Part shown: positions 44,158 to 63,261 of the stretch, one piece after another
Layout of the letters: each line of letters starts with the position of its first letter
Position numbering within the stretch: the stretch's first letter is position 1
NCBI RefSeq assembly: GCF_003333265.1
Contig: NZ_QOLB01000029.1
Location: forward strand, 62,001 to 126,000
Origin: Candidatus Halocynthiibacter alkanivorans
Lineage (GTDB): Bacteria; Pseudomonadota; Alphaproteobacteria; Rhodobacterales; Rhodobacteraceae
Direction of reading: 5' to 3'
Length of the DNA stretch: 64,000 nt
Notes under the pieces: generated by a model
Told to the model about the DNA's origin: nothing
The model's input: the letters and a program-made list of their open reading frames with translations, nothing else
The model's database searches: none
Translations under genes and position numbers: made by a program

Positions 44158-44178
44158 TTTTGAAAACGTTTTTCAAAA
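44158..44178. promoter_or_regulatory. Inverted repeat in bhcA-bhcR promoter
   Basis: TTTTGAAAA (44158-44166) and TTTTCAAAA (44170-44178) are perfect inverted arms separated by CGT. It lies 62 bases upstream of bhcA and 113 upstream of bhcR. It is the best candidate for the IclR-type regulator site. Confidence 0.5.
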
Positions 44179-44291
44179 CTGCCAAATGTGGCAATATAAG
44201 TGTAATTTCAATAGTTTACATTTTTTCACTGTACGAAATTGATTTTCAACATTAGGATGAAACTGCTTCTCAAATTACAGGTTTTCAACCC

Positions 44292-45119
44292 ATGCAACCT
44301 CCCAAAAGCAAACGCGGACGCCCAAAAAGCTTTGACAACAAACCGTCTCAAAACACGATTCAGTCTTTAGACCGTGCGCTGGATGTTCTCGATTTACTGG
44401 CAAACAGTGGCGGTATGACGCTGTCCCAGATTGCCGCCGGTCTGGATCAGTCAGCGGCGACGATTCACCGGGTGCTGGCCACGCTGGAAGCGCGTGACGT
44501 GGTAGAGACTGACGCTTCAACCCAGGCCTGGCACGTGGGTCCGGCGGCCTTCCGTCTGGGGGCATCATTCCTGCGGCGCAGCTCAGTGGTGGAACGCAGT
44601 CGGCCGGTTATGCGCGATCTGATGGAGGCCACCGGGGAGACGTCGAACCTGGGCATCGAGAACCGGGGCAATGTCATGTTCCTGAGCCAGGTCGAGACCC
44701 ATGAAACGATCCGGGCGTTTTTTCCGCCAGGCACGCTGTCCCCGATGCATGCTTCGGGCATTGGCAAAGCACTGCTCAGCCAGTTCACCGCCGCGCGGCT
44801 GGATCAGTATCTCCGCGACAGCGAGCGTGAACGGTTTACCGGAAAAACCATCTGTGACAGCGACGCGCTGCGCCGCGAGTTGCAGCAAATCAGGGATCAG
44901 GGTTTCGCCTTTGATGACGAAGAGCGCACCCAGGGCATGCGCTGTATTGCCGCCCCGGTGCTGAATTTCTACGGTGAAGCGGTGGCCGGGATTTCGGTCT
45001 CTGGTCCAACCCACCGGATGAGCGGCGCACAGATGACGCGGATTTCCATGCTTGTGCGTCAGGCCGCGCTGGACTTGTCACGCGGCCTGGGGGCTCAACC
45101 GCCGCAACCGGGCGGTTGA
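44292..45119 (+). CDS. bhcR: IclR-family regulator BhcR
   Basis: 275 residues. A basic N-terminus (SKRGRPKS) is followed by a winged helix (SLDRALDVLDLLANSGGMTLSQIAAGL) and the IclR effector domain (LSPMHASGIGKALL, GFAFDDEERTQGMRCIAAPV). It is divergent from bhcA, as in known bhc clusters, where the regulator responds to glyoxylate. Its last codons and stop form part of a hairpin. Confidence 0.92.
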   Translation: MQPPKSKRGRPKSFDNKPSQNTIQSLDRALDVLDLLANSGGMTLSQIAAGLDQSAATIHRVLATLEARDVVETDASTQAWHVGPAAFRLGASFLRRSSVVERSRPVMRDLMEATGETSNLGIENRGNVMFLSQVETHETIRAFFPPGTLSPMHASGIGKALLSQFTAARLDQYLRDSERERFTGKTICDSDALRRELQQIRDQGFAFDDEERTQGMRCIAAPVLNFYGEAVAGISVSGPTHRMSGAQMTRISMLVRQAALDLSRGLGAQPPQPGG

Positions 45120-45157: not shown

Positions 45158-45982
45158 TCAGCCAGGCAACGCCATATGCCGGTTCACGTCCTTGTACAGC
45201 AGGTAACGGAATGGGCCCGGGCCGCCGGCGTAACAGGCCTGGGGGCAGAAGGCGCGCAGCCACATATAATCGCCGGCTTCGACTTCGACCCAGTCCTGGT
45301 TCAGCCGGTAAACCGCTTTGCCTTCCAGCACATAAAGCCCGTGTTCCATCACATGGGTCTCCGCAAAGGGGATAACTCCACCTGGCTGGAATGTGACGAT
45401 GGTGACATGCATGTCATGGCGCAGGTCGGTCGGATCGACAAAGCGCGTGGTGGCCCAGGCGCCGTCTGTGTCCGGCATCTCGGTGGGCGCTATATCGCGT
45501 TCATTGGTGACAAAAGCCTCCGGCGGCGCCAGTCCGTCAACAGGTTGGAAACGCTTGCGGATCCAGTGGAACCTTACCGGGGCATCACTATCATTGCGCA
45601 GGCTCCAGGCGGCCCCCGCCGGGATGAAAGCATAACCGCCCTCGCCCATCTCATGCGCCTGCCCGTCAAGCGTCACCTGCATGGTTCCCTCAACAACGAA
45701 CAGCACCGCCTCGGCACTGGCATCTGTTTCCGGCCGGTCACTGCCACCGCCGGGCTGCACTTCGCCAATATACTGCGAAAAGGTCTCGGCAAAGCCGCTC
45801 AGCGGGCGGGACAACACCCAAAACCGGGCTTTGTCCCAAAACGGCAAGAGACTGGTGACAATATCGCTGAACGTGCCTTTGGGGATCACCGCATAGGCTT
45901 CGGTAAACATCGCCCGGTCGGTCAGCAATTGCGTTTGCGGCGGCAGGCCCCCCTTGGGAGCATAATAAGACGACTGAGACAT
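45158..45982 (-). CDS. allE: (S)-ureidoglycine aminohydrolase
   Basis: 274 residues from the ATG at 45982 with a GGAAAGG ribosome site. It is a bicupin; the active C-terminal cupin carries the metal ligands in ETHVMEHGLYVLEG, and the WLRAFCPQACYAGG segment is typical of UGlyAH. It releases ammonia from ureidoglycine, giving ureidoglycolate for AllA. It is separated from guaD by about 310 bases, so it has its own promoter or a long leader. Confidence 0.93.
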   Translation of the reverse strand: MSQSSYYAPKGGLPPQTQLLTDRAMFTEAYAVIPKGTFSDIVTSLLPFWDKARFWVLSRPLSGFAETFSQYIGEVQPGGGSDRPETDASAEAVLFVVEGTMQVTLDGQAHEMGEGGYAFIPAGAAWSLRNDSDAPVRFHWIRKRFQPVDGLAPPEAFVTNERDIAPTEMPDTDGAWATTRFVDPTDLRHDMHVTIVTFQPGGVIPFAETHVMEHGLYVLEGKAVYRLNQDWVEVEAGDYMWLRAFCPQACYAGGPGPFRYLLYKDVNRHMALPG

Positions 45983-46291
45983 AGACGGCCCTTTCCGGCA
46001 ACTGATTTGCACTCTCTTTAAAACCCGGTCTTTGCCCGCAGTTCAACGATAAAACCGCCCGGTGATACCAGAAGGAGTGCCTTGAAAAATATGATAATTC
46101 GATGACGTTCTCAGGTCATCAGCTTTTGCACCGTTTGCGGTTTTTTGCCGCAATTCACGCATTTGCACAGATCGCGTCAGGCCGCAAACCCTGCCTGCGG
46201 CCCCGGTCAGGGGCGAAACCTGACCGCAATCATTCGCATCCACCTGGCTGGCGGCCAGCGAAGAAACTGCGGTCAGACCGGCTGAACCGGC
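45983..46291. other. allE upstream region with three consecutive hairpins
   Basis: This 309-base gap between guaD and allE contains inverted repeats at 46137-46152 (TGCGG/CCGCA), 46180-46202 (GGCCGCA/TGCGGCC) and 46204-46226 (CGGTCAGG/CCTGACCG). No known riboswitch consensus was recognised. Confidence 0.5.
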
Positions 46292-47575
46292 TTAAAGCTG
46301 CGCCTGACCCGCAACATAGGTCTGCTGAACAGAGCGGTCATCGGCCATGATCTGCAGGATAAACAGCTCCTCCGCCAGCGTTTCCGCCCGCTCCATCCGC
46401 AACGCCATCGCGCTTGTGGCGGAACTGTTCAACACGACGATGTCGGCCTCTGAACCAGCATCCAGGGTTCCGATCTTGTCTTCCAGCCCCAGCGTCACAG
46501 CATTGCCGCGCGTGATCCAGTAAAACGCCCGGAACGGGTGCAGTTTCTGGTTGTTCAGCTGCAGGATCTTGTAGCCCTCGTTCAGGGTCTGCAGCATTGA
46601 ATAGCTGGTGCCGCCGCCGATGTCAGTTGCGATGGCATTTTGAATGCCGCGTGCCCTGAGCCCCGCGTCATCAAACAAGCCGCTGCCCAGAAACAGGTTC
46701 GAGGTCGGGCAGAACACCGGATGGCTGCCGGTTTCCGCAATCGCCCCGATCTCGCGCTCTTTCAAGTGAATCGAATGGCCAAGGAACATCTTTGGGCCAA
46801 GCAGATCATAGGACTGGTACACATCCAGATAGTCCCGCGCGCCCGGATACAGCTCGGCGGTAAAGGCGATCTCGTCCACGTTCTCAGACAGGTGGGTCTG
46901 CACGTAGCAATCCGGATGCTCAGCGACCAGCGCCTGGGCCGCCTCCATCTGTTCCGGGGTCGAGGTGATGGCAAAACGCGGGGTGATCGCATACAGCCCC
47001 CGGCCACGGCCGTGCCAGTCTTCGATCAGCGATTTGCTGTCGTCATAGCCCGACTGAGGCGTATCACAGACCATGTCCGGCGCGTTGCGGTCCATCAGCA
47101 CCTTGCCACCGATCATGCGCATGTTGCGCTTTGCGGCCTCGCCAAAATATGCGTCGGCCGAGGCTTTGTGCACAGAACAGTAAGAAACGGCGGTGGTGGT
47201 GCCGTTCTTGACCAGCTCATCATAGAACAGCCCTGCCATTCTGGTGGCATGAGCGGCATCGGCGTAACGACTTTCTTCCGGGAAAGTGTAGGTATTCAGC
47301 CAGTCCAGCAATTGCGCGCCCCAGGAGGCTACAACCTGCACCTGAGGGAAATGGATGTGCGTATCAATGAACCCCGCCATCAGCAGATGCGGGCGGTGGT
47401 CGATTATTTCGGCGTCAGTGGCCTGAAGGCTGACAGTGGCAAAATCGCCTTGTGCGATGATGATGCCATCGCTGACAAGGACCGCGCCGTTTTCGTGAAA
47501 TTCATAAGCATCCGTATCGTCCGCGCCCTGGGGTTCGGATACGAAATTCAGCACTCTGCCGCGTAGAAGTTTCAT
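46292..47575 (-). CDS. guaD: Guanine deaminase
   Basis: 427 residues of the amidohydrolase superfamily. The metal motif is DTHIHFPQ (HxH), with TPRFAITST, THLSEN, LGHSIHL and the late Asp in ATDIGGGTSYSM, all typical of GuaD. It converts guanine to xanthine, the substrate of the XdhABC enzyme encoded upstream. It follows the BMP-type binding protein gene, separated by an 11-pair hairpin. Confidence 0.94.
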   Translation of the reverse strand: MKLLRGRVLNFVSEPQGADDTDAYEFHENGAVLVSDGIIIAQGDFATVSLQATDAEIIDHRPHLLMAGFIDTHIHFPQVQVVASWGAQLLDWLNTYTFPEESRYADAAHATRMAGLFYDELVKNGTTTAVSYCSVHKASADAYFGEAAKRNMRMIGGKVLMDRNAPDMVCDTPQSGYDDSKSLIEDWHGRGRGLYAITPRFAITSTPEQMEAAQALVAEHPDCYVQTHLSENVDEIAFTAELYPGARDYLDVYQSYDLLGPKMFLGHSIHLKEREIGAIAETGSHPVFCPTSNLFLGSGLFDDAGLRARGIQNAIATDIGGGTSYSMLQTLNEGYKILQLNNQKLHPFRAFYWITRGNAVTLGLEDKIGTLDAGSEADIVVLNSSATSAMALRMERAETLAEELFILQIMADDRSVQQTYVAGQAQL

Positions 47576-47652
47576 TGGTATTCAAGTTTCCTGAGAATTC
47601 TCTCTGACCAGGATCGCGCCTGTGGCGTGATGGCAGGACAGATTATTAGGGT

Positions 47653-47682
47653 GGGAAACGCGCCACGAACAGCGCGTTTCCC
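47653..47682. terminator. Intercistronic hairpin between bmp and guaD
   Basis: GGGAAACGCGC and GCGCGTTTCCC form a perfect 11-pair stem around an 8-base loop, without a T-run. It could be an attenuator or an mRNA 3'-end stabiliser for the binding-protein message. Confidence 0.5.
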
Positions 47683-47693
47683 TGCGTTGCAGA

Positions 47694-48770
47694 TCAGGCA
47701 GAAACGCCTTCGACGTACCAGTCGATCCCGTTCAGCGCACCGTCATCCAGCGCGCCACCGGCGGCCAGCCGCTCGGTTCCTGTATTGTCAGATATTGGTC
47801 CGGCAAAGGCCGGGACGGACCCGTCAATGATGTTGTCGCGCGTTGCAATTGCAGCCGCCTGCACCTCGGCTGGAATGCGGTCATTGAACGGAGACATCTC
47901 TACGGCACCTTCTTTCATGCCCCACCAGGTGGACCCGGTTGACCAGTTGCCCGCCAGCACTTTTGCAATACGGTCAACATAGTAGATGCCCCAGTTGTTC
48001 TGGATCGCCGTCAGATGCGCGGTGGGTGCAAAGGAGGACATATCCCAGCTTTGACCAAAGGCCATCAGACCACGCTGTTCAGCGGCCTGAAGTGCCGCCG
48101 GACTGTCGGTGTGCTGGGCGATGATGTCCGCGCCCTGATCGAACAGCGCCTTGGCAGCATCAGCCTCTTTCGCAGGATCATACCAGCTTGAAACCCACAG
48201 AACCCGGGTCTGGAAATCCGGATTGACCTTGCGTGCGGCCAGGGTGAAGGCGTTGATGCCCTGCACCACTTCGGGGATCGGGAAGGAGGCGATATAGCCG
48301 GCAACGCCCGTTTCCGACATGTGGCCCGCAATGGTGCCACAGACTGCGCGGCCCTGATAATAACGTGCGTTATAAGACGCGACATTTTTGGATTGCTTGT
48401 ACCCGGATGCGTGCTCAAACTTCACGTTCTTATAGCGTTTGGCAACTTTCAGGGTCGGGTTCATATAGCCAAAGGACGTGGTGAAGATCAGCTCATTGCC
48501 CTGCTCGGCAAGGTTGCGGATCACCCGTTCGCTGTCCGGCCCTTCGGCAACGTTTTCCACGATGGTCGTTTCAATCGCGTCGCCGTATTGTGCGATCGCC
48601 GCCTGACGGCCCTGCTCATGGGCATATGTCCAGCCGTGATCCCCGATCGGGCCCAGGTAGACAAAGGCGACTTTCAGCGGCGCGGTGCCCCGTGCCATGG
48701 TTCCCAGCAAAGGCAGCGTTGCCGCCGCACCAGCTGTTTTCAGGATGTTTCTGCGCGTAAAATTGGTCAT
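47694..48770 (-). CDS. BMP-family (PnrA-like) nucleoside/purine binding protein
   Basis: 358 residues with a twin-arginine-like N-terminus (TRRNILKTAGAAATLPLLG) and the BMP/Med domain: GPIGDHGWTYAHEQGR, IFTTSFGYMNPT, GYIASFPIPEVVQGINAF. It is the periplasmic component of the adjacent nupP/nupQ-like permease. BMP proteins bind nucleosides or purines, which fits the island. Confidence 0.92.
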   Translation of the reverse strand: MTNFTRRNILKTAGAAATLPLLGTMARGTAPLKVAFVYLGPIGDHGWTYAHEQGRQAAIAQYGDAIETTIVENVAEGPDSERVIRNLAEQGNELIFTTSFGYMNPTLKVAKRYKNVKFEHASGYKQSKNVASYNARYYQGRAVCGTIAGHMSETGVAGYIASFPIPEVVQGINAFTLAARKVNPDFQTRVLWVSSWYDPAKEADAAKALFDQGADIIAQHTDSPAALQAAEQRGLMAFGQSWDMSSFAPTAHLTAIQNNWGIYYVDRIAKVLAGNWSTGSTWWGMKEGAVEMSPFNDRIPAEVQAAAIATRDNIIDGSVPAFAGPISDNTGTERLAAGGALDDGALNGIDWYVEGVSA

Positions 48771-48794
48771 GGTCTCTCCCTTTGGTATTGAAAT

Positions 48795-49718
48795 TCAGGT
48801 GGATGGTTTGAAGGGCTGGCCCAGACAGGCCGGAGCCTGAGCACCGGCTGATTTCCTGAGCGAAATCAGCGCAAGCACAGCGATCGTTGCGATATAAGGC
48901 ATGGCGGCCAGAAGTTCGGGGGCGATGAGCGTGATGCCGGCGGCTTTGGTGTAAAGCTCCAGTGTCATAACCACGCCAAAGAAATACGCCCCCAGCAGCA
49001 GGCGCCACGGGCGCCAGGCTGAAAATACGACCAGGGCCAGCGCGATCCAGCCACGCCCGGCGGTCAGCTGCTCCGCCCACATCGGCGTCAGAACCAGCGA
49101 ATAGTAACTTCCGCCAATGCCAGCCATGGCACCGCCAAAGGCCACGGCAGCATAACGCACGCCAATCACCGAATAGCCGATGGAATGGGCCGAACTGTCA
49201 CTCTCGCCCACCGCTCGCAGGATCAGACCAGCGCGTGATTTCTTCAGGAACCACGCCACCGCGCCGATCATCGCAATCGAGAAGTAGACAACCACGTTGT
49301 GGCCGAAGACAACACGCAGCACCGGATGTTCGGCCAGACCAGCCGGGAAGACCGGTCCCATGACGTCAATGGTGAAGCCGACAAACCCTTCGCCCAGCAG
49401 CGAAGACAGCCCGATACCAAAGATCGTCAGCGCCAGGCCGGTTGCCACCTGGTTGGCGGTCAGCGTCAGTGTCAGATAGGCAAAGATCAGTGCCGCCAGC
49501 GTCGCAGTTATCGCCGCAACAATGATGCCAACCAGTGGCATGCCAGTGATTGAAGTCACCGCAAACCCGGTGACGGCCCCCACCAGCATCATGCCTTCGA
49601 CACCCAGATTCAGCACACCGCTTTTTTCAACCACCAGCTCGCCCAGCGCGGCCAGCAGGATCGGGGTCGAGGCCCCGATGACGGTCATGATGAATGATAT
49701 GAGAAGATAGTCGTTCAT
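48795..49718 (-). CDS. Nucleoside ABC transporter permease (NupQ/YufQ-like)
   Basis: 307 residues with eight to ten hydrophobic segments and the branched-chain/ribose-type permease signature (GELVVEKSGVLNLGVEGMML). It overlaps the other permease by four bases and forms the channel with it. Confidence 0.92.
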   Translation of the reverse strand: MNDYLLISFIMTVIGASTPILLAALGELVVEKSGVLNLGVEGMMLVGAVTGFAVTSITGMPLVGIIVAAITATLAALIFAYLTLTLTANQVATGLALTIFGIGLSSLLGEGFVGFTIDVMGPVFPAGLAEHPVLRVVFGHNVVVYFSIAMIGAVAWFLKKSRAGLILRAVGESDSSAHSIGYSVIGVRYAAVAFGGAMAGIGGSYYSLVLTPMWAEQLTAGRGWIALALVVFSAWRPWRLLLGAYFFGVVMTLELYTKAAGITLIAPELLAAMPYIATIAVLALISLRKSAGAQAPACLGQPFKPST

Positions 49719-50791
49719 TTTGCACCTCCAGGTGCTGCGGAACCAAACCGCAAGCGATATTTCACCAGGATGTCTGTCGCCAGCAGGAAGAACAGCATCA
49801 TCGCCTGAAACAGTCCGGCGGCGGCATTGGGCAAGCCAAGCGTGGTCTGCGCGATTTCACCGCCCACATAGGAGATCGCCAGGATGACACCGGCCAGCAT
49901 GATGCCGATCGGATGCAGACGACCCAGAAAGGCAACGATGATGGCGGTAAAGCCGTAGCCGGTCGGAAACTGCGGCACCATCTGGCCAAAGGGACCCGCC
50001 GCCTCAAAGACACCGGCAAGACCGGCCAGCCCGCCACCGGCAAGCATCGACAACAACACCGTGCGGTTCTTGTTAAAGCCACCATAGCGGGCCGCATGCG
50101 GCGCAGCGCCAACGACACGGACCTGAAAGCCAAACACGGTCTTTGACATGGTGAACCAGGCGATCAGCGCAATGATAAAGGCCAATGGCACCCCAATATG
50201 GACAAAGGTATCGCCGATTTCCGGCATCAGTTGCGAGTCACTGAACAGACGTGTCTGCGGGAAGTTAAAGCCCTCCGGATCCATCCATGGACCGCGCATC
50301 AGGTAATAGAGCAGCTGCACCGCGACATAGGTCATCATCAGGCTCGACAGGATCTCGTTGACCTCAAGCTTGATTTTCAGCAGCGCCGGAATCGCGGCAT
50401 AGAGCATCCCGCCGACAATCCCCGCCAGACACATCAACGGCAGGATCCAGACGCCTTCCATATCCCAGGTCAGCAAGGCCACCCCGGTGCCGGCAAGTGC
50501 GCCGAAAATGTACTGCCCTTCGGCGCCGATGTTCCAGACATTCGCCCGGAACCCGATCGACAGGCCGGTCGCAATCAGGATCAGCGGCGCGGCTTTGATG
50601 CCAAGATCCGGCCAGCGGCCAATATCAATGGCAGGGGTGATGAAGATTTCCCGCACTGCGGCCAGACCATTGTAGCCCAGCAGCGTAAAGATGACCGCGC
50701 CGAACACCATGGTCAGCAAAACGGCAATGACCGGTGTCAGGTATAACATGGAGCGGCTGGGCTCCTTGCGTGCTTCAAGTTCAAGCAACAT
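49715..50791 (-). CDS. Nucleoside ABC transporter permease (NupP/YufP-like)
   Basis: 358 residues with about nine hydrophobic segments. It contains FRANVWNIGAEGQYIFGALAG and RVVGAAPHAARYGGFN, conserved in the BMP-associated permeases. Its first 11 bases overlap the ATPase gene. Confidence 0.92.
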   Translation of the reverse strand: MLLELEARKEPSRSMLYLTPVIAVLLTMVFGAVIFTLLGYNGLAAVREIFITPAIDIGRWPDLGIKAAPLILIATGLSIGFRANVWNIGAEGQYIFGALAGTGVALLTWDMEGVWILPLMCLAGIVGGMLYAAIPALLKIKLEVNEILSSLMMTYVAVQLLYYLMRGPWMDPEGFNFPQTRLFSDSQLMPEIGDTFVHIGVPLAFIIALIAWFTMSKTVFGFQVRVVGAAPHAARYGGFNKNRTVLLSMLAGGGLAGLAGVFEAAGPFGQMVPQFPTGYGFTAIIVAFLGRLHPIGIMLAGVILAISYVGGEIAQTTLGLPNAAAGLFQAMMLFFLLATDILVKYRLRFGSAAPGGAK

Positions 50792-52340
50792 GGGCTGCCT
50801 CCGTCATTTCAGTGGTAGAATTCGGGTCGCCGTGGACCCCGCCCATCAACAGGCCGATCTCATCAATCGTGGCCTCGGCGACATTGAGGGTTTTGGACAT
50901 TTTTCCTTCGTTGATCACCGCCATCCGGTCACAGATTGCCAGCAGCTCATCCAGATCCTGCGAGATCACCACGATGGCAGAGCCCCGCCCGGCAAGATTG
51001 ACCAGTTCCTGATGGATCGCCGCAGCGGCACCTGCGTCCACACCCCATGTGGGTTGCGAAACAATCAACACTTCGGGCGTTTGCATGATCTCGCGCCCCA
51101 TGATGAATTTTTGTAGGTTACCGCCCGACAGAGAACCGGCAGTTGACGTCGAACCCGTTGTTTTCACCGAGAATTGCTGGATGATTTCGTCGGCATATGT
51201 CTCGGCTTTTCTGGCGTTGATCACGCCCCAGTTCACCATGCCTTTGCGATTGCGCGCGGTCAGAATTGCATTGTCGGTCAGTGAGAAATTTGGCACCGCC
51301 CCGTGGCCGTTTCTTTCTTCTGGCACCGCACACAGACCGAAATAGCGGCGCAGCGTGGTGCCCAGTTTACCCAGCGGTTTGCCATCCAGCTGAACGGTAT
51401 AACTGTCCTCAGATTTGACCTCTCCGCTCAGCGCCAGCAGCAGCTCGTTCTGGCCGTTGCCGGCAACGCCTGCGATGCCAAAAATCTCGCCTTCGCGCAC
51501 GCTGAAATTGATGTCGTCAAGGGCGACACCAAAATCGCCTTCGCCCGGAACTGTCAGGCTGTTGACGACAAACCTGTCGCCGCCAAGCTGGCGTGACGGG
51601 CCTTTCTCAACATCCATCAACTCGCCGCCGATCATCATCTCGGCCATCGAGCGCGCGCTCTCTTGCTTGGGGTCACAGGCGCCGACAATCTTGCCGCCGC
51701 GCAGGATCGAAGCCCCGTCGCACAGCGCCTGAATTTCGTGCAGCTTGTGGCTGATATAAAGGATCGAACAGCCGTTGGCCGCCAGATGCCGCAGGGTTTC
51801 AAACAGTTGTGCCACTTCTTGCGGCGTCAGAACTGATGTGGGTTCGTCCATGATCAGAAGGTTGGGATTCAGCAGCAACGCGCGCACGATTTCGATCCGC
51901 TGACGTTCCCCCACGCTCAGCGTCGACACGATCCGGTGTGGCTCAAGCGCCAGCCCGTACTGTGTCAGCACTTCACGAATACGCTTTTCCAGCTCCGCGT
52001 GGCTGATATTTTCATCCAGACCCAAAGCAATATTTTCCAGCACTGTCATCGCCTCGAAAAGCGAGAAATGCTGGAACACCATGCCAACGCCCATGGCGCG
52101 CGCGGCTTTCGGGTTGGGCACATGAACCACGTTACCGTCGAGCAGAATTTCACCCGCGTCGGGCTGCATAATGCCGTAGATCATCTTGACCAGCGTCGAT
52201 TTTCCGGCGCCGTTTTCTCCAAGCAGCGCATGAATTTTTCCGGGGCCCACTTTAAAGCTGACCTGATCATTGGCCAGCACCCCCGGAAACGCCTTGGTCA
52301 CGCTGCGCAGCTCCAGCCGACAGGCCACATCCGTATTCAT
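50781..52340 (-). CDS. Nucleoside ABC transporter ATPase with two cassettes (NupO/YufO-like)
   Basis: 519 residues with two ABC domains. The first has GENGAGKST, LSVGERQRIEI and LLIMDEP. The second has a degenerate P-loop (GVAGNGQNE), SGGNLQKF and an altered Walker B (IVSQPTWGVD), as is usual for BMP-linked ATPases. It overlaps xdhC by four bases, so uptake and oxidation genes are one transcript. Confidence 0.94.
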   Translation of the reverse strand: MNTDVACRLELRSVTKAFPGVLANDQVSFKVGPGKIHALLGENGAGKSTLVKMIYGIMQPDAGEILLDGNVVHVPNPKAARAMGVGMVFQHFSLFEAMTVLENIALGLDENISHAELEKRIREVLTQYGLALEPHRIVSTLSVGERQRIEIVRALLLNPNLLIMDEPTSVLTPQEVAQLFETLRHLAANGCSILYISHKLHEIQALCDGASILRGGKIVGACDPKQESARSMAEMMIGGELMDVEKGPSRQLGGDRFVVNSLTVPGEGDFGVALDDINFSVREGEIFGIAGVAGNGQNELLLALSGEVKSEDSYTVQLDGKPLGKLGTTLRRYFGLCAVPEERNGHGAVPNFSLTDNAILTARNRKGMVNWGVINARKAETYADEIIQQFSVKTTGSTSTAGSLSGGNLQKFIMGREIMQTPEVLIVSQPTWGVDAGAAAAIHQELVNLAGRGSAIVVISQDLDELLAICDRMAVINEGKMSKTLNVAEATIDEIGLLMGGVHGDPNSTTEMTEAAHVA

Positions 52341-53191
52341 GAGCTTCTCCCTTCGAGTAAAACTGATGGTTTTTCCGCAGCTTCGCGCGCTTTAAAACCG
52401 GTCAGTTCAGTGATGACTTCTGCTGCAACAAGCGCGGCAATAACGTCGGGCCGTTTGTCGCAGCAACTGCCTGCACCGATCGGGCAGGTCAGGTTATTGA
52501 TGCTCTGGCCGTCGTTTTCACGCCGGCACCAGCTTTTGAATGAGGCCCGTTTACTGGCCGAGCCAATCATGCCGACATAGGCGGCGTCGCCACGGGCAAG
52601 CGCTTCGGAAGCGGCCAGAAAATCAAGCGAGTGATCATGGGTCAGCACCACAAAAGCACTGCCGGCAGATGCCGCGCGAATTTCAGCTTCCGCCAGCGGT
52701 GTCAGGCGTTTTTCGACCGCTGCTTTGCACTGCGACAATTCGTCAGTGCGCCCGTCGATCAAAATGGTTTTGACCGGCAAAAGAGCCAGGGACGCCGCCA
52801 GCGCGCGCCCCACGTGACCGGCGCCAATGATGTAAACACTTGGATAGTTGGACACTTCCCCGGCGAGGCTGCCAACCGCCATCAGTTTGTCCGCGACACT
52901 CATCCGCGCCAGGCTGATCTCCACACGACCGCCGCAGCATTGGCCGATTTCCGGGCCCAGCGGCACGTCCATGACCATCTTGTCACCGCCCTGAGCCAGC
53001 ATCACGCGGGCCTGGCTGATGGCCATATATTCAAGCTGGCCACCGCCGATGGTGCCAAATGTCGCGCCCTTTGCCACGAACATCTCAGCGCCTGCATCCC
53101 GCGGAGATGAGCCCCGCACGCGGGTCAACCTGACGGACGCGACCCCGGCGTGATCTTCCAGAAACGTTTTAATTGCGCGCGTATCAGACAT
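52337..53191 (-). CDS. xdhC: Xanthine dehydrogenase accessory protein XdhC
   Basis: 284 residues. N-terminal XdhC motifs are RGSSPRDAGAEM, GTIGGGQLEY and GQCCGGRVE; the C-terminal Rossmann part begins YIIGAGHVG and contains THDHSLD and GMIGSASKR. It loads sulfurated molybdenum cofactor into XdhB and is not part of the final enzyme. It starts three bases after xdhB. Confidence 0.94.
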   Translation of the reverse strand: MSDTRAIKTFLEDHAGVASVRLTRVRGSSPRDAGAEMFVAKGATFGTIGGGQLEYMAISQARVMLAQGGDKMVMDVPLGPEIGQCCGGRVEISLARMSVADKLMAVGSLAGEVSNYPSVYIIGAGHVGRALAASLALLPVKTILIDGRTDELSQCKAAVEKRLTPLAEAEIRAASAGSAFVVLTHDHSLDFLAASEALARGDAAYVGMIGSASKRASFKSWCRRENDGQSINNLTCPIGAGSCCDKRPDVIAALVAAEVITELTGFKAREAAEKPSVLLEGRSS

Positions 53192-53194
53192 GGC

Positions 53195-55537
53195 TCAGCC
53201 CTCACCGTCCTGCAGCCGGTCAATGGCCATCAGAACCCGTTCGGGGGTGGCCGGGCTGTCCAGCCGTGGGCATTCGCGATAATCCGCGATCGAAGCAACC
53301 GCCATCGACAGCGCTTCAAACACCGATATCCCCAGCATGAACGGCGGCTCGCCGACGGCTTTGGACCGTTTGATGGTCAATTCACGGTTCTCTGACCAGT
53401 CGGCCAGGTTCACGTTGAATTCACGCGGCAAGTCAGACGCCAGTGGGATTTTGTAGGTCGAGGGCGCATGGGTGCGCAGGCAGCCCTCGTCATCCCACCA
53501 CAATTCCTCGGTGGTGACCCAGCCCATGCCCTGAACAAACGCGCCTTCGACCTGGCCCTTGTCCAGAATTGGGTTCAGCGAGCGGCCGACGTCGTGCAGG
53601 ATATCTACCCGGTCGACCTGATATTCGCCGGTCAGCGTATCGATGCTGACCTCAGATACCGAGGCGCCGTAAGCGTAATAATAGAACGGGCGGCCTTTGC
53701 CTTTTGCCCGGTCCCAGTGAATGTCCGGCGTTTTGTAAAACCCTGCGGCTGAAAGCTGGATCCGCGCCATATAGGCCTGTTTTATGAAGGCGTTGAACGA
53801 CAGCCGTGTGTCGCCGATATGAACTTCATTGGGGGCGAAAACCACCTCAGACGGGTCAACCTTCCAGGTCTCCGCCGCGAATGTAACGAGGCGCGCTTTG
53901 ATCTGTTCTACCGCGTTCAGCGCCGCCATACCGTTCAGGTCAGAGCCGGACGAAGCTGCGGTAGCCGACGAGTTCGGCACTTTTTCAGTGGTGGTTTGGG
54001 TGATTTTGATACGGTCAAAGTCCACCTGAAACGCGTCCGCCACAACCTGAGCGACCTTGGTGTTCAGCCCCTGCCCCATCTCGGTACCGCCGTGGTTCAG
54101 CGCGATCGAGCCGTCATTGTAGACGTGCACCAGCGCACCGGCCTGGTTGAACCAGGTAGCGGTGAAGGAGATGCCGAATTTGACCGGCGTCAGCGCGATG
54201 CCCTTGCGGATGATGCCGCCTTTGGCATTGTGTTCCAGCACCGCAGCTCTACGCGCCTGATACTGCGAAGTGTCTTCAAGCTCGCCCACCAGGCGCTGCA
54301 GTATATTGTCGGAAACCGTCTGATGATAGGGCGTCAGATCACGGCCTTCGCCGCCATAGAAATTCACTTTGCGGACTTCCAGCGGGTCCTTGCCAAGATG
54401 ATAGGCGATTTCTTCCATGATCCGCTCAGCGGCGATCACCCCGTGCGGGCCACCAAAACCGCGAAATGCGGTGTTGGACACCGTGTTGGTTTTCATCGGC
54501 TTTGAGACCAGGCGCACATGCGGATAGAAATAGGCGTTGTCCGCATGAAACAGGGCGCGGTCGGTGACCGGTCCCGACAGATCCGCCGAAAAACCACAGC
54601 GGGCCGCAAAGCTGCCGTCCAGCGCCTGGATCCGGCCGTCACTGTCAAAGGCGACGTCATAATCGATGACAAAGTCGTGCCGCTTGCCGGTCGCGATCAT
54701 GTCCTGATCCCGGTCAGGGCGGATCTTGACTGCGCGGTTCCATTTTTTCGCCGCCAGTGCTGCCACTGCACAAAACAGGCTCATCTGGCTTTCTTTGCCA
54801 CCAAAACCACCGCCCATGCGGCGCACATTGACCGTCACCGCGTTGGAAGCAACACCCAGAACATGCGCCACCATATGCTGCGCTTCGCTTGGGTGCTGGG
54901 TCGAAGAATAAACCGTTACGTCTTCATCTTCACCAGGCATAGCAAAGGCGATATGGCCTTCAAGATACATGTGATCCTGACCACCGGCGGTCATCTGGCC
55001 CTTGATACGGTGTTCCGCTGCTGCCATCGCGGTTTCAACGTCGCCCCGTTCCAGTTTCAATGGCGCGGTGACACAGGGTCCGCCTGCCTCGATGGCCTGA
55101 ACGGCGTCCAGTATATGCGGCAGTTTTTTGTAGCTGACCTCTGCCAGTTCAGCGGCCCGGCGCGCGGCATCCCGGCTTTCCGCAACTACGGCAAACAGCG
55201 GCTGCCCCCAGAACTCAATCTTGCCGGTGGCAAAAACCGGGTCGTCATTTGAGCCTGTCGGGCTGACGTCATTGACACCGGGAATATCATCCGCAGTCAG
55301 AACGCCGACCACACCAGGCGCCGCCAGAACCGCGCTGAAATCTATGTTTTCGATCTCTGCATGCGCAACTTCAGACAGACCAAGATAGGCGTGCAGCGTG
55401 CCAACCGGCTCGGCGATATCGTCGGTATAATCTGCCGCCCCGGTGACGTGTTTTGTGGCACTGTCATGGCGCAGATCGGTGGTGGCAGCACCCTTGATAA
55501 CCGTTGTGTGTTTCATCGTATTTGCCTGAACGTTCAT
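53195..55537 (-). CDS. xdhB: Xanthine dehydrogenase molybdopterin-binding subunit
   Basis: 780 residues. It has GGGFGGKESQ, TAFRGFGGPHG, GTEMGQGLNTKVAQV and the catalytic Glu in AVGEPPFMLG near the C-terminus. It oxidises hypoxanthine and xanthine to urate. It overlaps xdhA by four bases. Confidence 0.95.
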   Translation of the reverse strand: MNVQANTMKHTTVIKGAATTDLRHDSATKHVTGAADYTDDIAEPVGTLHAYLGLSEVAHAEIENIDFSAVLAAPGVVGVLTADDIPGVNDVSPTGSNDDPVFATGKIEFWGQPLFAVVAESRDAARRAAELAEVSYKKLPHILDAVQAIEAGGPCVTAPLKLERGDVETAMAAAEHRIKGQMTAGGQDHMYLEGHIAFAMPGEDEDVTVYSSTQHPSEAQHMVAHVLGVASNAVTVNVRRMGGGFGGKESQMSLFCAVAALAAKKWNRAVKIRPDRDQDMIATGKRHDFVIDYDVAFDSDGRIQALDGSFAARCGFSADLSGPVTDRALFHADNAYFYPHVRLVSKPMKTNTVSNTAFRGFGGPHGVIAAERIMEEIAYHLGKDPLEVRKVNFYGGEGRDLTPYHQTVSDNILQRLVGELEDTSQYQARRAAVLEHNAKGGIIRKGIALTPVKFGISFTATWFNQAGALVHVYNDGSIALNHGGTEMGQGLNTKVAQVVADAFQVDFDRIKITQTTTEKVPNSSATAASSGSDLNGMAALNAVEQIKARLVTFAAETWKVDPSEVVFAPNEVHIGDTRLSFNAFIKQAYMARIQLSAAGFYKTPDIHWDRAKGKGRPFYYYAYGASVSEVSIDTLTGEYQVDRVDILHDVGRSLNPILDKGQVEGAFVQGMGWVTTEELWWDDEGCLRTHAPSTYKIPLASDLPREFNVNLADWSENRELTIKRSKAVGEPPFMLGISVFEALSMAVASIADYRECPRLDSPATPERVLMAIDRLQDGEG

Positions 55538-56997
55538 ACCCGCACCAACTGCGCTGTCTGATCAGCGCTCCCTTTTTCGAGCCAGAACCGGCGGAACAGA
55601 TTTTGGGATACCCGCAGCCGGTAGTCCGCCGAGGCACGCCAATCCGAGAGCGGCGTGAAATCTTTGCCAAGCTCCCTGGACGCTGCGATCAACGTTGCTT
55701 CACTCCAGGCCTGACCGATCAGTACCGCCTCAGCATGTGCCGCACGTTTGGGCGTCGCTGCCATGCCGCCAAAGGCGATGTTGGCGCGTAAGATCATGCC
55801 GTTTTCAACCGTCAGGTTAAACGCTGCGCAGACCGAAGAAATGTCCTCATCCCGGCGCTTGGTGATTTTATAGGCGGCGTGAAGCGTGTTGGCCGCGGCT
55901 TTCGGAATGTGGATGCTTTCCACAAAGTCACCCTCTTCCCGGTCCTGCTTGCCGTAGGCGATAAAAAACTCAGCAATCGGAACCACACGTCTGGTGGCGC
56001 CTTTGCGCAGCGTGATCTCAGCGCCAAGTGCGATCAAAAGCGGTGGTGTGTCGCCGATCGGGGACCCGTTGGCGATATTGCCACCGATGGTGCCCATATT
56101 GCGCACTTGCCAGCCGGCAATACGGTTCCAGAACTCCGCCAGATGCGGGAAGTTGGAGGTCAGAACAGTCTCAGCTTCAGAATAAGTAGCACCTGCGCCC
56201 AGGGTGATATTGTCACCATCGCTGCTGATCTGCTTCAGCCCATCCAGATGGCCAATGAAAACTGCAGGCGAAATCGGGCGCATCATTTTTGTGACCCAGA
56301 GGCCAACATCGGTCGATCCTGCAACAATGGTGGCTTGCGGATGTTCCTGCAGCACCACGGCCAGGTCATCGACATCTGCTGGTACGATTGCCAGATCGCT
56401 GCCTTCAGACAGTTCAACCCGTGCGCCATCCTTATACGCGGCAAGACGTGCCATCGTGGCGTCACGTTCCGCCAACAGATAGTCACTTGTTGGCGTGCCA
56501 TATTGAGACACAGCATGTGCGGCCTTGATGATCGGTTCATAGCCGGTGCAACGGCACAGATTGCCCTGCAGCGCGGTCTCGATCTCTGTGCGCGAGGGAC
56601 TGGGGGATTGCATCCACAGCGCGTAGAGCGACATCACAATGCCTGGCGTGCAAAAGCCACATTGGCTGCCGTGGAAATCCACCATAGCCTGCTGCACCGG
56701 ATGAAGCCGCCCCTCGGGCCCACGCAAATGTTCGATGGTTACAATGTGACAGCCGTCAAGCGACGCCATAAAGCGAATGCAGGCGTTGACGGTTTCATAG
56801 ATCAGTTCCCCGTTTGCAATCCGGCCGATCAGCACGGTACAGGCACCGCAGTCCCCCTCCGCACAACCTTCTTTGGTGCCCGTCAGACGACGCTCAATCC
56901 TGAGAAAGTCCAGCACCGTATCCGTTGCAGAAACCTCCGCGATGCACTGCTCGCGGTCGTTCAGAAGAAATCGAATTTCTCGACGTATCGCCTGCAT
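55534..56997 (-). CDS. xdhA: Xanthine dehydrogenase FAD/2Fe-2S subunit
   Basis: 487 residues. The N-terminal plant-type 2Fe-2S cluster is GCAEGDCGACTV, the second cluster CGFCTPG with CRCTGY, and the FAD domain contains VAGSTDVGLWV and MGTIGGNIANGSPIGD. It passes electrons from molybdenum to NAD. It is the first gene of the xdhABC-ABC-bmp-guaD operon, divergent from the LysR gene. Confidence 0.95.
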   Translation of the reverse strand: MQAIRREIRFLLNDREQCIAEVSATDTVLDFLRIERRLTGTKEGCAEGDCGACTVLIGRIANGELIYETVNACIRFMASLDGCHIVTIEHLRGPEGRLHPVQQAMVDFHGSQCGFCTPGIVMSLYALWMQSPSPSRTEIETALQGNLCRCTGYEPIIKAAHAVSQYGTPTSDYLLAERDATMARLAAYKDGARVELSEGSDLAIVPADVDDLAVVLQEHPQATIVAGSTDVGLWVTKMMRPISPAVFIGHLDGLKQISSDGDNITLGAGATYSEAETVLTSNFPHLAEFWNRIAGWQVRNMGTIGGNIANGSPIGDTPPLLIALGAEITLRKGATRRVVPIAEFFIAYGKQDREEGDFVESIHIPKAAANTLHAAYKITKRRDEDISSVCAAFNLTVENGMILRANIAFGGMAATPKRAAHAEAVLIGQAWSEATLIAASRELGKDFTPLSDWRASADYRLRVSQNLFRRFWLEKGSADQTAQLVRV

Positions 56998-58510: not shown

Positions 58511-59311
58511 TCAGTCCGGACGCACGCGGGCTGCGGTTTTGTTGGCAAAAGCTTCAAGCCGTGCGCGCGACGCTGGTTGCGTGTTCACAATACCCGCCAT
58601 CACCGCTTCGGCATAGGAGGCATCCAGCGGTGACATGTTCTGGAAATGCGAAATCGCCGAACAGATGGCAAAATTTGACAGCGGCGGGTTTTTGACCGCG
58701 GCGCGGGCCAGTTCCATCGCTTTGTCTTCCGCGCTGTCTTCCACCAAATACTGGCACAGCCCGACGTCAACCGCCTCCTGGCCTTTATAGATCCGCCCGG
58801 TCAGCATCATGTCGATCATGCGGGATTTGCCCACCAGATCGGCGACCCGGATGGTGGCGCCACCGCCGGTGAACAACCCACGCTGCCCTTCGGGAAGCGC
58901 AAAATAGGTGCCCAGATCCGCCACCCGGATATGGGCGGACGAGGCCAGTTCCAGCCCGCCGCCAACCACCGCGCCCTTGAGCGCCGCAATCACCGGGATG
59001 CCGGAATATTCGATTTTGTTGAACGCCTCGTGCCAGCGCATGCAGAGATGCATGAAATCCGCCGCCGAGCGGTCCTCGTTGAAATGCTCCACCAGATCCA
59101 GCCCGGCACAGAAATGATCACCATTGGAGCGCAGCACCACCGCCTGGGCGCCTTCGCGCGGCAGGATCGAAAACAGCGTCACAAATTCTTCAATCGTCGC
59201 CGCATCCAGCGCGTTGCGCTTGGCAGGCCGGTTCAGCGACACAATGGCGATGTTGTCCTCGCCCATCTCCACGTCGAGATTCACCAGAGGTTTTTGTTCG
59301 ATCTTAATCAC
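58511..59311 (-). CDS. Crotonase, DmdD-like enoyl/methylthioacryloyl-CoA hydratase
   Basis: 266 residues. It has [13 protein letters not shown], the oxyanion and catalytic Glu in [12 protein letters not shown] and the second Glu in [15 protein letters not shown]. The C-terminal [13 protein letters not shown] and [11 protein letters not shown] strongly recall DmdD, the methylthioacryloyl-CoA hydratase of DMSP demethylation in Ruegeria. It overlaps the ligase by four bases. DmdD-type enzymes also hydrate crotonyl-CoA, so the physiological substrate is not certain. Confidence 0.85.
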
Positions 59312-60942
59312 GTCTTGTCCTTCCCCATCTCACGGGCGCGTTCCCGCAACAGGAACTTTTGAATTTTACCGGTCGCGGTCTTGGGCAGGTCCCCGAACAC
59401 CACCGCTTTTGGTACTTTGAACCCTGCCAGCCGCTCTTTGCAGAAAGCGATGATCCCTGCTTCGTCTGCGGCAGCGTCACTGCGCAATTCCACGAAAGCA
59501 CAGGGGCTTTCCCCCCATTTGGGATGCGGCATCGCAACCACCGCCACAGCGGCAATGGCCGGATGGTGGTGCAGCGCGTTTTCGACCTCGACCGAAGATA
59601 TGTTTTCGCCGCCGGAAATGATCACATCTTTCAGCCGGTCTTTGATCTGCACATAGCTGTTGGCATGTACCACGGCGCCATCCCCGGACCAGAACTGACC
59701 GTTCTCAAACGCCGCCGCAGTTGCCGTCGCGTCTTTATAATAGCCCTTCATCACCACGTTGCCACGAATGGCAATTTCGCCCTGGGTTTTCCCGTCTTTT
59801 GGCACCTCGCCCCCAGTGGCACGGTCGACAACAGCAAAACCTTCGACCATGGGAAAACCAACCCCCTGCATGGCCTGCATTTCGGCCTGCTCATCGGCGC
59901 TCAAAGCGTCCCATTCTTCGCGCCAGATGCATTGCGACACATGGCCATAGGTTTCCGTCAGCCCATAGACCTGCATCACCTCAAAGCCCAGCGCCCGGGT
60001 TTTCGCCAGCACCGCCGGCGGCGGTGGCGCGCCTGCGGTGAACACTTTGAGCGGCGGCGAAAACGGCGCTTCTGGCGCGTCTTCGCTGTCCGCCAGCATC
60101 GCCAGGATCACAGGCGCCGCGCCAAAATGCGTCACGCCCTCCTCTTTGATCGCGCGAAACAGTTTTTGCGGCAGCGCGTCGCGGGTGAACACCATTCGCG
60201 CACCGACCATGGCCATCGCCCAGGGGTGGTTCCAGCCATTGCAATGGAACATCGGCACCACCGACAGGTAGACCGGGTTTTGCGGCACATTCCATCCGGC
60301 AATTGTGCCCATGCTCATCAGATAGGCGCCACGATGGTGATAGACCACACCTTTGGGTTTGCCGGAGGTGCCCGAGGTGTAATTCAGCGCCAGCGCCTGC
60401 CATTCATCTGCGGGCAGCCTGGGTGCGAAACCGCCATCACCACTGGCAATCATATCCTCGTAATTGTGCTGGCCGAACCCCGGTGTTGCACCGGCCTGGT
60501 CATCGATGATGTCGATCACCGGAATCTCGCGGCCCAGGATGTCAAACGCCGCCCGCAAGAGCGGCGCATAGGCGCTGTCGGCAATCACCAGCTGACTGTC
60601 TGCATGATCCAGAATATAGGCAATGGTCTCTGCTTCGAGGCGTGAATTGATTGTGTTCAGCACCGCGCCGGTCATCGGCACCGCATAATGCAGTTCAAAC
60701 AGCGCCGGAATATTGGGGGCGATCACCGACACCGTATCCCCAAGCCCGATGCCCCGCGCCACCAGCGCTGAGGCAAAAGCCTGGCAGCGCCGCTCAACGT
60801 CGGACCAGCTGTAGCGGTGGTCGCCATAGCTCACCGCCTCCCGGTCGCCAAAAACGCCGGCCGCGCGGGATAAAAACGAAAGAGGCGTCAACGCCACATA
60901 GTTGGCCGCTGTCCTGGGCAAAGCGTCAAAATTTTTGTGCAT
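59308..60942 (-). CDS. Acyl-CoA ligase (AMP-forming), DmdB-like
   Basis: 544 residues from the ATG at 60942 (AGGGAA upstream). The AMP motif is [11 protein letters not shown], followed by [20 protein letters not shown] and the catalytic Lys in KTATGKIQK. The N-terminus resembles short/medium-chain or aryl acid ligases of the plant AAE type. Pairing with a DmdD-like crotonase suggests activation of methylmercaptopropionate or another short acid; this is inference. Confidence 0.88.
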
Positions 60943-60992
60943 CCCGAATTCCCTGTGAAGTGTCCGGCTGACCTGGGGCCGGGCCAGTGTTG

Positions 60993-61013
60993 CCCCGGTC
61001 ATCAGGACCGGGG
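60993..61013. terminator. Intercistronic hairpin between DmdA-like and ligase genes
   Basis: CCCCGGTC and GACCGGGG pair perfectly around ATCAG. No T-run, so attenuation or RNA stability is more likely than full termination. Confidence 0.4.
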
Positions 61014-61031
61014 ACTTGCTGCGCTATTTGT

Positions 61032-62135
61032 TTACAAAAACGGAAAGTCTACAAGCACGCCGTTCTGCGGTCCGTCGGCGCGCATCACCTGCACCCGGTC
61101 TCCCGGCCCACATGTGCTTGAAATCAATGCAAAGCCGATGTTCTTTTTCATACGCCAGGACCAGGAACAATTGGTCAGATGACCCATTTTCCTGCCCTCG
61201 CAGGTGATTTCGTTCCAGCCTGGTTCCGGCACCAGAGCGCTGTCCCCGTCCAGGATCACCCCAAGCTGCTGCCGCACCGCGCCCCGCGCTTTAATGTCAC
61301 GCAGCGCCTGAATGCCGATCACATCGTCCGGCACATCCAGATCAACAAAGCCGCCAAGACGCACCTCATAGGGGTTGGTCACATCGTCCGTGTCACCGCC
61401 ATAAGACAGCAACCCGCTTTCCACCCGTTCTGAAGGATTGGGATTACCCGGGCCAATACCCCATGCCTGCCCGGCCTCGCGCACAATATTCCACAGCTCT
61501 TCGCCCCGGCTGCCATCCATCAGATACAGCTCAAAACCGCCCTGCTTGGACCAGCCCGACCGCGCCACAGCAACCGGTATTCCTCTCAACGTGGTCTCCT
61601 GAAACCAGAAATATTTCAGATCCCGCACCCAGTCGCCAAACAGATGCGCCACCACATCTTCGGCTTTTGGCCCCTGCAGCGCCATCGGTGAGACATCCGG
61701 CTCCGACACCTGCACGTTCAAGCCGCGTTCCGCCGCAACCGCCCGTGCCCAGAACAATATATTTGAATCCGCGATCGACAGCCAATAGCGGTCATCCGCC
61801 AGTTTCAGCAGGATCGGATCATTGATCAGCACGCCATCATGATTGCACATGGCGACGTATTTCCCCTGCCCCACTTTGCAGCGGCTCAGGTCGCGCGGGC
61901 TCAGGATCTGGGCCAGGGTGCCGGCATCCGGTCCCAAAAGTTCGACCTGACGCTCAACGGCCACATCCCACTGGCTGACACCATTGATCAGACGCCAATA
62001 TTCGCCCTCAGGATCGCCGTAGCCGGTCGGCATCAGCATCTGATTGTACGTGGTGAAGGATGCCACGCCCTCTTTCAGCGTTGCATTGTAATAAACCGAG
62101 GGGCGCACACGCGCAGAAGGAGCAATGACAGCCAT
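61032..62135 (-). CDS. GcvT-family protein, DmdA-like (DMSP demethylase-like)
   Basis: 367 residues from the ATG at 62135 with AGGAAC upstream, close to DmdA length. It shares with DmdA the segments YNQMLMPTGYG (YNHMLLPT in DmdA), QWDVAVERQVEL, EPDVSPMALQGPKA, ARSGWSKQGGFELY and ERVESGLLSYG. Several regions differ, especially the C-terminal 100 residues, so it may be a non-DMSP tetrahydrofolate-dependent demethylase. It heads the operon with the ligase and crotonase. Confidence 0.82.
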   Translation of the reverse strand: MAVIAPSARVRPSVYYNATLKEGVASFTTYNQMLMPTGYGDPEGEYWRLINGVSQWDVAVERQVELLGPDAGTLAQILSPRDLSRCKVGQGKYVAMCNHDGVLINDPILLKLADDRYWLSIADSNILFWARAVAAERGLNVQVSEPDVSPMALQGPKAEDVVAHLFGDWVRDLKYFWFQETTLRGIPVAVARSGWSKQGGFELYLMDGSRGEELWNIVREAGQAWGIGPGNPNPSERVESGLLSYGGDTDDVTNPYEVRLGGFVDLDVPDDVIGIQALRDIKARGAVRQQLGVILDGDSALVPEPGWNEITCEGRKMGHLTNCSWSWRMKKNIGFALISSTCGPGDRVQVMRADGPQNGVLVDFPFL

Positions 62136-62373
62136 GTTAGTTCCTGTGTTGAGGGCGATCCTGGCGGCACCAGGTTCCCGCCTATCAGCACCAGATCTGC
62201 TGGTGCTGACAAACAACCAAATCACAGGCTCAGCCCAACTTTTGCGACGGTATCGGCGCAGCACCTCTGCGGCTCCGGCGTCGCGCTAGTCTTGTGCGGG
62301 CAAAATTCCTGATTTGACAGTTCGGATAAAATCGACAGGATAAACGACCGACCGCAAAAAGAGACCCGCGCTG

Positions 62374-63261
62374 ATGAAAAACCACCTGCCACCGCTGCCC
62401 TGGCTGCGGGCCTTTGAGGCCGCCGCCCGCCATCTCAGTTTCACCCTCGCCGCCCGGGAACTGGGGCTGACCCAGGCTGCGGTCTCCAAACAGGTCAAAC
62501 TGCTGGAACACCACCTTGGCGAAGCGCTGTTTCACCGCCAGGCCCGCAGCCTGAGTCTCAGCAAAGCCGCGCTCTCTTATCTTCCCAGCGTGCAGGACGG
62601 TTTTGAGCGCATCAGAACCGGCACCGAAGAAGTCTTTGCCGGGCGCAAAACCGGCATTCTGACCCTGCGGGTACAGTCGACCTTTTCGGTGAACTGGCTG
62701 GCCCCGCGCCTGCCGGATTTCTTTGCCACCCATCCCGGCACACCCCTGCGGATCATCTCCATCATCTGGGCCGACGATCCGGACGCCGGGCAGTTCGATC
62801 TCGACATCCGCTATGGCAGTGGCCGCTGGAACGGCTATCACTGCGACCGGCTCAGCCACGACCGTTTGCGACCGCTGTGCAGCCCCCGGACTGCCCGGGA
62901 ACTGACCCAGCCCACCGACCTGGAAGATCATCGCATGCTGCATGTGATGGGCTATCTCGAAGGCTGGGGCATCTGGCTCAAAGCCGCCGGCCTGCCCCAC
63001 ATTCCTGCCGGGGCCGGGATCCAGTTCGACACCTCCCTGCTTGCCTATCAAGTTGCCGCAAGCCACGGCGGCATCGCGCTTGGCCGCAGCTGCCTCTGCG
63101 AATCCGCGCTGGCCACCGGCGCGCTGGTCGCCCCTTTTGCGTTGTCAGTGCCTGTAGAGGAAGCCTTCTACCTGCTCAGCCCGCAAGACCGTCCCGCCCA
63201 CCCTGACAGCGCGCTATTTCGCGACTGGATCCTGCAACAACTCCGCCCCAGCCCGGGCTGA
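62374..63261 (+). CDS. LysR-family regulator (GcvA-like)
   Basis: 295 residues. It starts LPPLPWLRAFEAAARHLSFTLAARELGLTQAAVS, the GcvA-type helix-turn-helix, and has the matching effector domain (FDLDIRYGSG, GGIALGRSCLCE). It is divergent from the DmdA-like gene across 238 bases and probably controls that operon. GcvA-type regulators often sense amino acids or one-carbon metabolites. Confidence 0.92.
   Translation: MKNHLPPLPWLRAFEAAARHLSFTLAARELGLTQAAVSKQVKLLEHHLGEALFHRQARSLSLSKAALSYLPSVQDGFERIRTGTEEVFAGRKTGILTLRVQSTFSVNWLAPRLPDFFATHPGTPLRIISIIWADDPDAGQFDLDIRYGSGRWNGYHCDRLSHDRLRPLCSPRTARELTQPTDLEDHRMLHVMGYLEGWGIWLKAAGLPHIPAGAGIQFDTSLLAYQVAASHGGIALGRSCLCESALATGALVAPFALSVPVEEAFYLLSPQDRPAHPDSALFRDWILQQLRPSPG

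Follow-up and report, generated by a model that had tools for sequence, protein, structure and literature searches.

A three-gene cluster on the minus strand at positions 58511-62135 of a 64,000-nucleotide stretch of contig NZ_QOLB01000029.1 from Candidatus Halocynthiibacter alkanivorans (the whole stretch is termed the window) is read here, with a probability of about 65%, as an operon for the demethylation of dimethylsulfoniopropionate (DMSP) that contains a DmdA-like enzyme of a divergent lineage and has its dehydrogenase supplied from elsewhere. The cluster that the initial annotation had reported is real, and its coordinates were borne out: a DmdA-like, predicted tetrahydrofolate (THF)-dependent demethylase of the GcvT fold (61032-62135, 367 aa from its ATG) is followed on the same strand by an acyl-coenzyme A (CoA) ligase in the DmdB position (59308-61002) and a DmdD-type crotonase, putatively a methylthioacryloyl-CoA hydratase (58511-59311, 266 aa from a GTG start).

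In the proposed pathway, the DmdA-like enzyme would transfer a methyl group from DMSP, or from a very close methylsulfonio acid, to THF, giving 5-methyl-THF and 3-methylmercaptopropionate (MMPA). The ligase would then convert MMPA to MMPA-CoA, a dehydrogenase encoded on contig C113 of the same genome would oxidize MMPA-CoA to methylthioacryloyl-CoA, and DmdD would hydrate the latter to methanethiol, acetaldehyde, CO2 and CoA; a divergently encoded LysR-type protein probably switches the operon. Each catalytic step is assigned from the family of its enzyme, and the substrate, the regulation and the co-transcription of the genes are likewise predictions from sequence.

The DmdA-like demethylase and its lineage

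The demethylase carries the Pfam domains GCV_T and GCV_T_C and is the best match of its genome to the NCBIfam DmdA model NF009133, the next one scoring 151; at 362 bits it stays under the 410 cut-off, and thus outside curated DmdA membership. It matched the Pelagibacter DmdA of 3TFH with 266 bits and 37% identity, and was 40% identical to the Ruegeria DmdA. When its AlphaFold2 model (predicted local distance difference test score, 92.4) was compared with solved structures, 3TFH ranked first over the full length with a template modelling (TM) score of 0.95 and 1.7 Å, followed by the glycine-cleavage T-proteins (1WOO) at TM 0.88, indicating that the predicted structure has the DmdA fold.

The DmdA-type active-site motif (Q200, G201, A154, W or Y at 197, E204 and Y206, in 3TFH numbering) is present in the demethylase. 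Q200, G201 and A154 were kept in all 96 rows of the window clade; in the 25 rows of the DmdA clade, Q200 was found in 25, G201 in 24 and A154 in 24. A third paralogue group (L123 type) carried E200 and Q154 in 22 of 22 rows, G201 not being among the residues listed for it. At position 197, 12 of the DmdA rows had tryptophan, another 12 tyrosine and one phenylalanine. Tryptophan W171, reported to matter for DMSP (PMC7487153; this and the other papers are cited here from partial text), corresponds to W197 of 3TFH by a mapping made in this analysis, and since Y or F replaces it in 13 of the 25 DmdA rows, the tryptophan stressed in that text is not strictly conserved.

The C-terminal third, in which the initial annotation had seen a departure from DmdA and a hint of another substrate, is the most divergent part of the protein (27% identity to 3TFH and 25% to the Ruegeria DmdA). 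However, the argument for a different substrate fails because the Ruegeria and Pelagibacter DmdAs differ equally there, being likewise 25% identical; together with the full-length fold match, this rules out the divergent third as a mark of another substrate.

Both a 154-row tree and a careful 78-row tree placed the window group apart from the group of the Pelagibacter 3TFH and Ruegeria DmdAs. In the 78-row tree, which served as the phylogeny with proven clades that had been proposed as a check, support was 100/99 for the window clade and 100/100 for the accepted DmdA clade, and the single nesting hypothesis tested, the window group with the roseobacter-type DmdAs, was rejected (approximately unbiased test, p 4e-72; log-likelihood 101 lower). 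Clade support and rejected nesting together exclude a position inside the accepted DmdA clade. These trees speak to separateness, not to the branching order among the window, DmdA and third (L123 type) groups, and were built without the SAR92 DmdAs (HTCC2207, H921, H231); a search for SAR92 DmdAs in the order of G306 covered four genomes only, none known to be SAR92. Sequences scoring less than 150 bits with the window protein were dropped from trees and alignments, as were L059 (frame) and L218 (in-frame TAG), 13 identical sequences were merged, and 6 of the 30 true DmdA loci of the window's family were kept for the tree.

Among 295 sampled genomes of the window's family, 52 had a match to the window protein with an E value no higher than 1e-100, and in 18 of these, counting the window's genome, identity was at least 59%. 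Of these 18 window-type carriers, 6 also had a gene scoring above the DmdA cut-off, vs. 125 of the 295 genomes overall (raw figures), and the other 12 sampled carriers in the family had none. Our own reading of isolate names suggests that many carriers come from lakes. Among the titles and abstract openings listed in a literature search, none reported this lineage. By sequence, the demethylase lineage is distinct from accepted DmdA, within a pathway that is itself already known. That it constitutes a second, so far uncounted DMSP demethylase lineage is proposed tentatively, at a little under even odds; as such it would be an isozyme of DmdA found across Alpha-, Beta- and Gammaproteobacteria, including rhizobia and apparent lake bacteria, that scores below the curated DmdA cut-off and is partly packed with ligase, DmdC-type, dmdD, acuI or methionine-synthesis genes.

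Partner enzymes and their recurrence beside relatives

The crotonase scored 360 bits with PRK08150 (cut-off 232) and 417 bits with 4IZB, the best chain outside the 4IZB/4IZC set reaching 217; it was 71.6% identical to 4IZB over 257 residues and kept both catalytic glutamates, E121 and E141. We take 4IZB to be the R. pomeroyi DmdD, although its listing names it only as an enoyl-CoA hydratase family protein. With this close match and both glutamates, the crotonase is taken as DmdD. The ligase belongs to the PRK08162 subfamily (785 bits, cut-off 677) and falls outside canonical DmdB, PRK07008, at 332 bits against a cut-off of 822, which none of the genome's 13 PRK07008 matches passed. Its best structure chain was 1ULT (308 bits), with 243 bits for 6IHK, presumably a DmdB, and comparison with the ligase of L250 made ATG 60942 its likelier start.

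No dmdC lies within the cluster, as the initial annotation stated; its supposition that the absence points to another pathway is not supported, in view of a gene found elsewhere in the genome and of the gene rows of relatives. The genome encodes two 600-residue acyl-CoA dehydrogenases with a PF12806 domain. One of them, on contig C113 (L015), matched 6IJC, which we assume to be the verified DmdC of Ruegeria lacuscaerulensis, with 1046 bits, and the second matched it with 452 bits. The suggested search beyond the cluster thus yielded a DmdC candidate, and a lack of dmdC in the organism is ruled out. The C113 gene forms a row with a thiolase gene and a FadJ-like gene. As DmdB and DmdC are described as broad enzymes (PMC5395565), the DmdC step could plausibly be supplied by a shared dehydrogenase of fatty-acid metabolism.

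A single gene row running dmdA, ligase, DmdC-type dehydrogenase, dmdD is found in both L096 (Mesorhizobium huakuii) and L097, the L096 dehydrogenase scoring 448 bits with 6IJC and 489 with its best chain, 8PNG; a dehydrogenase beside dmdA in L021 had 6IJC as best chain (501 bits). L250, from another genus of the window's family, shows the window's three-gene order without dmdC, and its LysR gene lies on the same strand.

The surroundings of relatives were compared over 101 loci, comprising 80 from one contig scan (the best 80 of 592 confirmed), 20 stretches of the window's family (17 window-type and three of a sister group) and the window. Removal of three duplicates left 98, or 97 without the window, and these loci are not independent events. 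Five gene types were counted, PRK08162 ligase, DmdD, DmdC-type dehydrogenase, AcuI and MetY, by similarity calls with families named on examples. At least one of the five was found within 5 kb in 27 of the 97 other loci, and two or more in 10; leaving out the sister group (L257-L259), which lies outside the window clade, gives 27/94. Contigs were under 12 kb for 24 of the 97, and between 5 and 10 kb, a distance which the short-contig loci do not reach, the sole match was L085's own dmdD at 5.05 kb. Counts within 5 kb over the 98 loci were 27 for LysR, 13 for DmdD, nine each for the PRK08162 ligase, MetY and a peptide-type binding protein (SBP_bac_5), six for a second ligase type, and five each for the DmdC-type dehydrogenase and AcuI. 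Chance does not account for the grouping of the three genes, since genes of these types are found repeatedly next to relatives from other genera.

The L085 row runs dmdA-DUF2182-DUF1326-ligase-acuI-dmdD and continues into an ATP-binding cassette (ABC) importer of the betaine/trimethylamine N-oxide type, whose best chain was 4XZ6 (152 bits), which we take to be TmoX, with 49 bits for 7YLE, presumably DmpX.

Several further observations concern these gene rows. MetY is a type able to use methanethiol, and in L069, L076, L080, L081 and L086 the window-type gene stands beside MetY and a common gene set; the L069 copy of one shared gene is of the methyl-THF:corrinoid methyltransferase type, which fits a use of 5-methyl-THF and methanethiol for methionine. 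Genes of the DUF1326 and DUF2182 types (Pfam PpoB2, copper chaperone) recur beside true dmdA and the window-type gene (L101, L102; L041, L085, L089). Members of the third DmdA-related group (Glu at 200, without the DmdA motif) occur near a PRK08162-like ligase in L172:4215-8297 (Ruegeria pomeroyi), L173 and L161, the L161 member also having a DUF1326 gene next to it.

DMSP and other candidate substrates

The host also encodes a DMSP_lyase-family cupin, on contig C149 of the window's genome (L272:1339-1974), which exceeded the Pfam DMSP_lyase cut-off (136 bits vs. 27), as no protein did in any of 14 control genomes, and resembled the solved lyases weakly (34 bits). Since the genome encodes this protein, contact of the host with DMSP is plausible.

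Several results weigh against the DMSP operon. The best reason for doubt comes from R. pomeroyi: strain SZCCDBG043 (L032/L112) encodes, besides a true DmdA, a window-clade protein of 70% identity, yet methanethiol is not produced when dmdA is deleted in this species (PMC5395565). SZCCDBG043 is not DSS-3, and its clade member lies in a neighbourhood of the peptide-type ABC transporter kind, all five gene types being absent from the 5 kb around it. Similarly, no methanethiol was detectable from Ahrensia isolates, though sequenced Ahrensia genomes hold DmdA homologues (PMC6309047); one Ahrensia genome is among the carriers here (L094), and the available text of that paper does not show that the isolates carry the window-type gene. 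None of the five gene types was present within 5 kb in 70 of the 97 other loci. The PRK08162 ligase is not specific, because it is also found near the paralogue without the DmdA motif (L172, R. pomeroyi), the AcuI of L049 scored 436, just below the AcuI cut-off of 440, and the L096 and L021 dehydrogenases are by sequence DmdC-type, not proven DmdCs. Finally, a search of the genome for the SBP56 methanethiol oxidase gave none.

Part of this evidence would also fit the same MMPA-type route acting on another sulfonium compound, such as gonyol, dimethylsulfonioacetate or another DMSP analogue, with the ligase, DmdC and DmdD-like steps following. Such a substrate would accord with the separate clade of the demethylase, with the failure of R. 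pomeroyi's own paralogues to rescue its dmdA mutant (PMC5395565), with the mixed transporters (SBP_bac_5 peptide-type in 9/98 loci, a TRAP carrier beside the window's LysR), and with the interference of gonyol and dimethylsulfonioacetate with DMSP cycling (PMC7221440). However, DmdD and the C113 dehydrogenase are DMSP-pathway types, AcuI occurs near relatives (5/98) and the DmdA motif is unchanged. We regard another sulfonium substrate as unlikely, though still to be reckoned with, and to this extent a part of the initial annotation's proposal stays, namely that a different methylated compound may be the substrate.

A looser association, in which ligase and DmdD salvage MMPA from methionine breakdown beside an unrelated folate-dependent demethylase, appears improbable. 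Genomes with dmdBCD and no dmdA are common and are read as using MMPA, not DMSP (PMC7039863), and the demethylase stands without the five gene types in the 70 loci mentioned above; against this, the adjacency recurs in differing arrangements and orders, and the demethylase has the DmdA-type active-site motif. The remaining element of the initial annotation, activation and hydration of a different demethylated compound without dehydrogenation, is in keeping with the lack of dmdC in the operon and in the same three-gene order of L250, but is hardly credible given the close 6IJC relative elsewhere in the genome, the DmdC-type gene inside the L096 and L097 operons, and the hydratase's need for an enoyl-CoA, a substrate obtainable from the demethylated acid only if that acid is unsaturated to begin with.

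Operon layout, regulation and relation to known systems

The ligase stop and the GTG start of the crotonase overlap by 4 bases, and the gap between dmdA and the ligase is 29 or 89 bases, depending on the ligase start chosen; judging by this spacing, the three minus-strand genes are probably co-transcribed. In a pattern scan, the dmdA-ligase gap was free of terminator-like sites, and one promoter-like match (60959..60931, 9/12) spans the likely ligase start. In the same scan, terminator-like sites were at chance level (6 found vs. 5.4 expected), promoter-like sites slightly over expectation (4 vs. 1.6, standard deviation 1.4), and no promoter-like site fell in the divergent intergenic region. 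A riboswitch was considered, and the window gave no Rfam match at gathering scores.

The initial annotation had counted a GcvA-like LysR gene as part of the operon. The compact three-gene minus-strand cluster stands, but the LysR gene (62374-63261) is on the plus strand and divergent; because it points away from the cluster, it is a likely regulator and neighbour, not a member. Its product scored 268 with the NCBIfam GcvA model, below the cut-off of 288, and the 27 LysR genes counted near the relatives, the window's included, are at least 45% identical to it. The region between the divergent genes (62136-62373), a probable promoter and operator, holds an inverted repeat just upstream of the dmdA-like gene (62184-62210, 10-base arms, TCAGCACCAG...CTGGTGCTGA); the mechanical open reading frame of the demethylase begins within this region, at GTG 62264, the ATG giving 62135. 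Upstream of the dmdA-like gene, a TTTGAC-like element recurred at 14 of 24 loci (counting the window), compared with at most 4 in 200 shuffled sets, for a pattern derived from the same sequences on which it was scored; the window's own copy was not significant (61/1000 shuffles).

After the LysR gene and on the same strand, a tripartite ATP-independent periplasmic (TRAP) transporter extends from 63724 to the window's edge and continues in L176:1-3312. Its large permease exceeded the dctM cut-off, and its binding protein, small permease and a GlcG-like gene were named by reading; it could import the substrate of the operon. Elsewhere in the window, a complete beta-hydroxyaspartate cycle cluster occupies 39727-45119, with BhcD, BhcC, BhcB, BhcA and the regulator BhcR all over NCBIfam cut-offs, and a purine breakdown block, 45158-56997, encodes (S)-ureidoglycine aminohydrolase, guanine deaminase, XdhC, XdhB and XdhA, with an ABC importer, named by reading, between its genes.

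Counts of dmdA are used to gauge the share of DMSP that is demethylated, yielding methanethiol, as against cleaved, yielding dimethyl sulfide. Should the window lineage be active on DMSP, dmdA surveys undercount demethylation; should it be inactive, the lineage would point to some as yet undiscovered methylated compound as the feed of DmdD-type chemistry. A metagenome study considered that DmdA isozymes may exist in hydrothermal sediments, reporting, in its available text, no evidence for such enzymes (PMC7039863).

Compared with the DmdAs of Ruegeria pomeroyi and Pelagibacter ubique (3TFH), the window protein is alike in its full-length fold, GcvT and GcvT_C domains, S-G-W-S-K-Q-G-G-F-E motif and length, and differs in its 40% and 37% identity, respectively, its own clade (100/99) and its score of 362 vs. 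the 410 cut-off. The 'non-DmdA' clade of PMC7487153, compared here by description, similarly consists of homologues that are close to DmdA yet fall outside its clade, and some of them have a DmdA-type structure and the key tryptophan. The SAR92 DmdAs (HTCC2207, H921, H231) lie at a similar distance from accepted DmdAs, 38-40% and 35-39%; they are described as lying at the periphery of clades A-E and proved functional in complementation, restoring methanethiol production to 34-54% of wild type (PMC10746254), which weighs on the side of DMSP. Their gene order, dmdA-acuH-dmdB-dmdC, is unlike that of the window, in a comparison made by description and not on the tree (PMC10746254). The ligase shares with DmdB of the PRK07008 type (6IHK) the AMP-binding acyl-CoA ligase superfamily and the place in the pathway, and differs in being of the PRK08162 type. 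The crotonase shares with the DmdD of 4IZB 71.6% identity and both glutamates, and here it adjoins a dmdA-like gene and a ligase.

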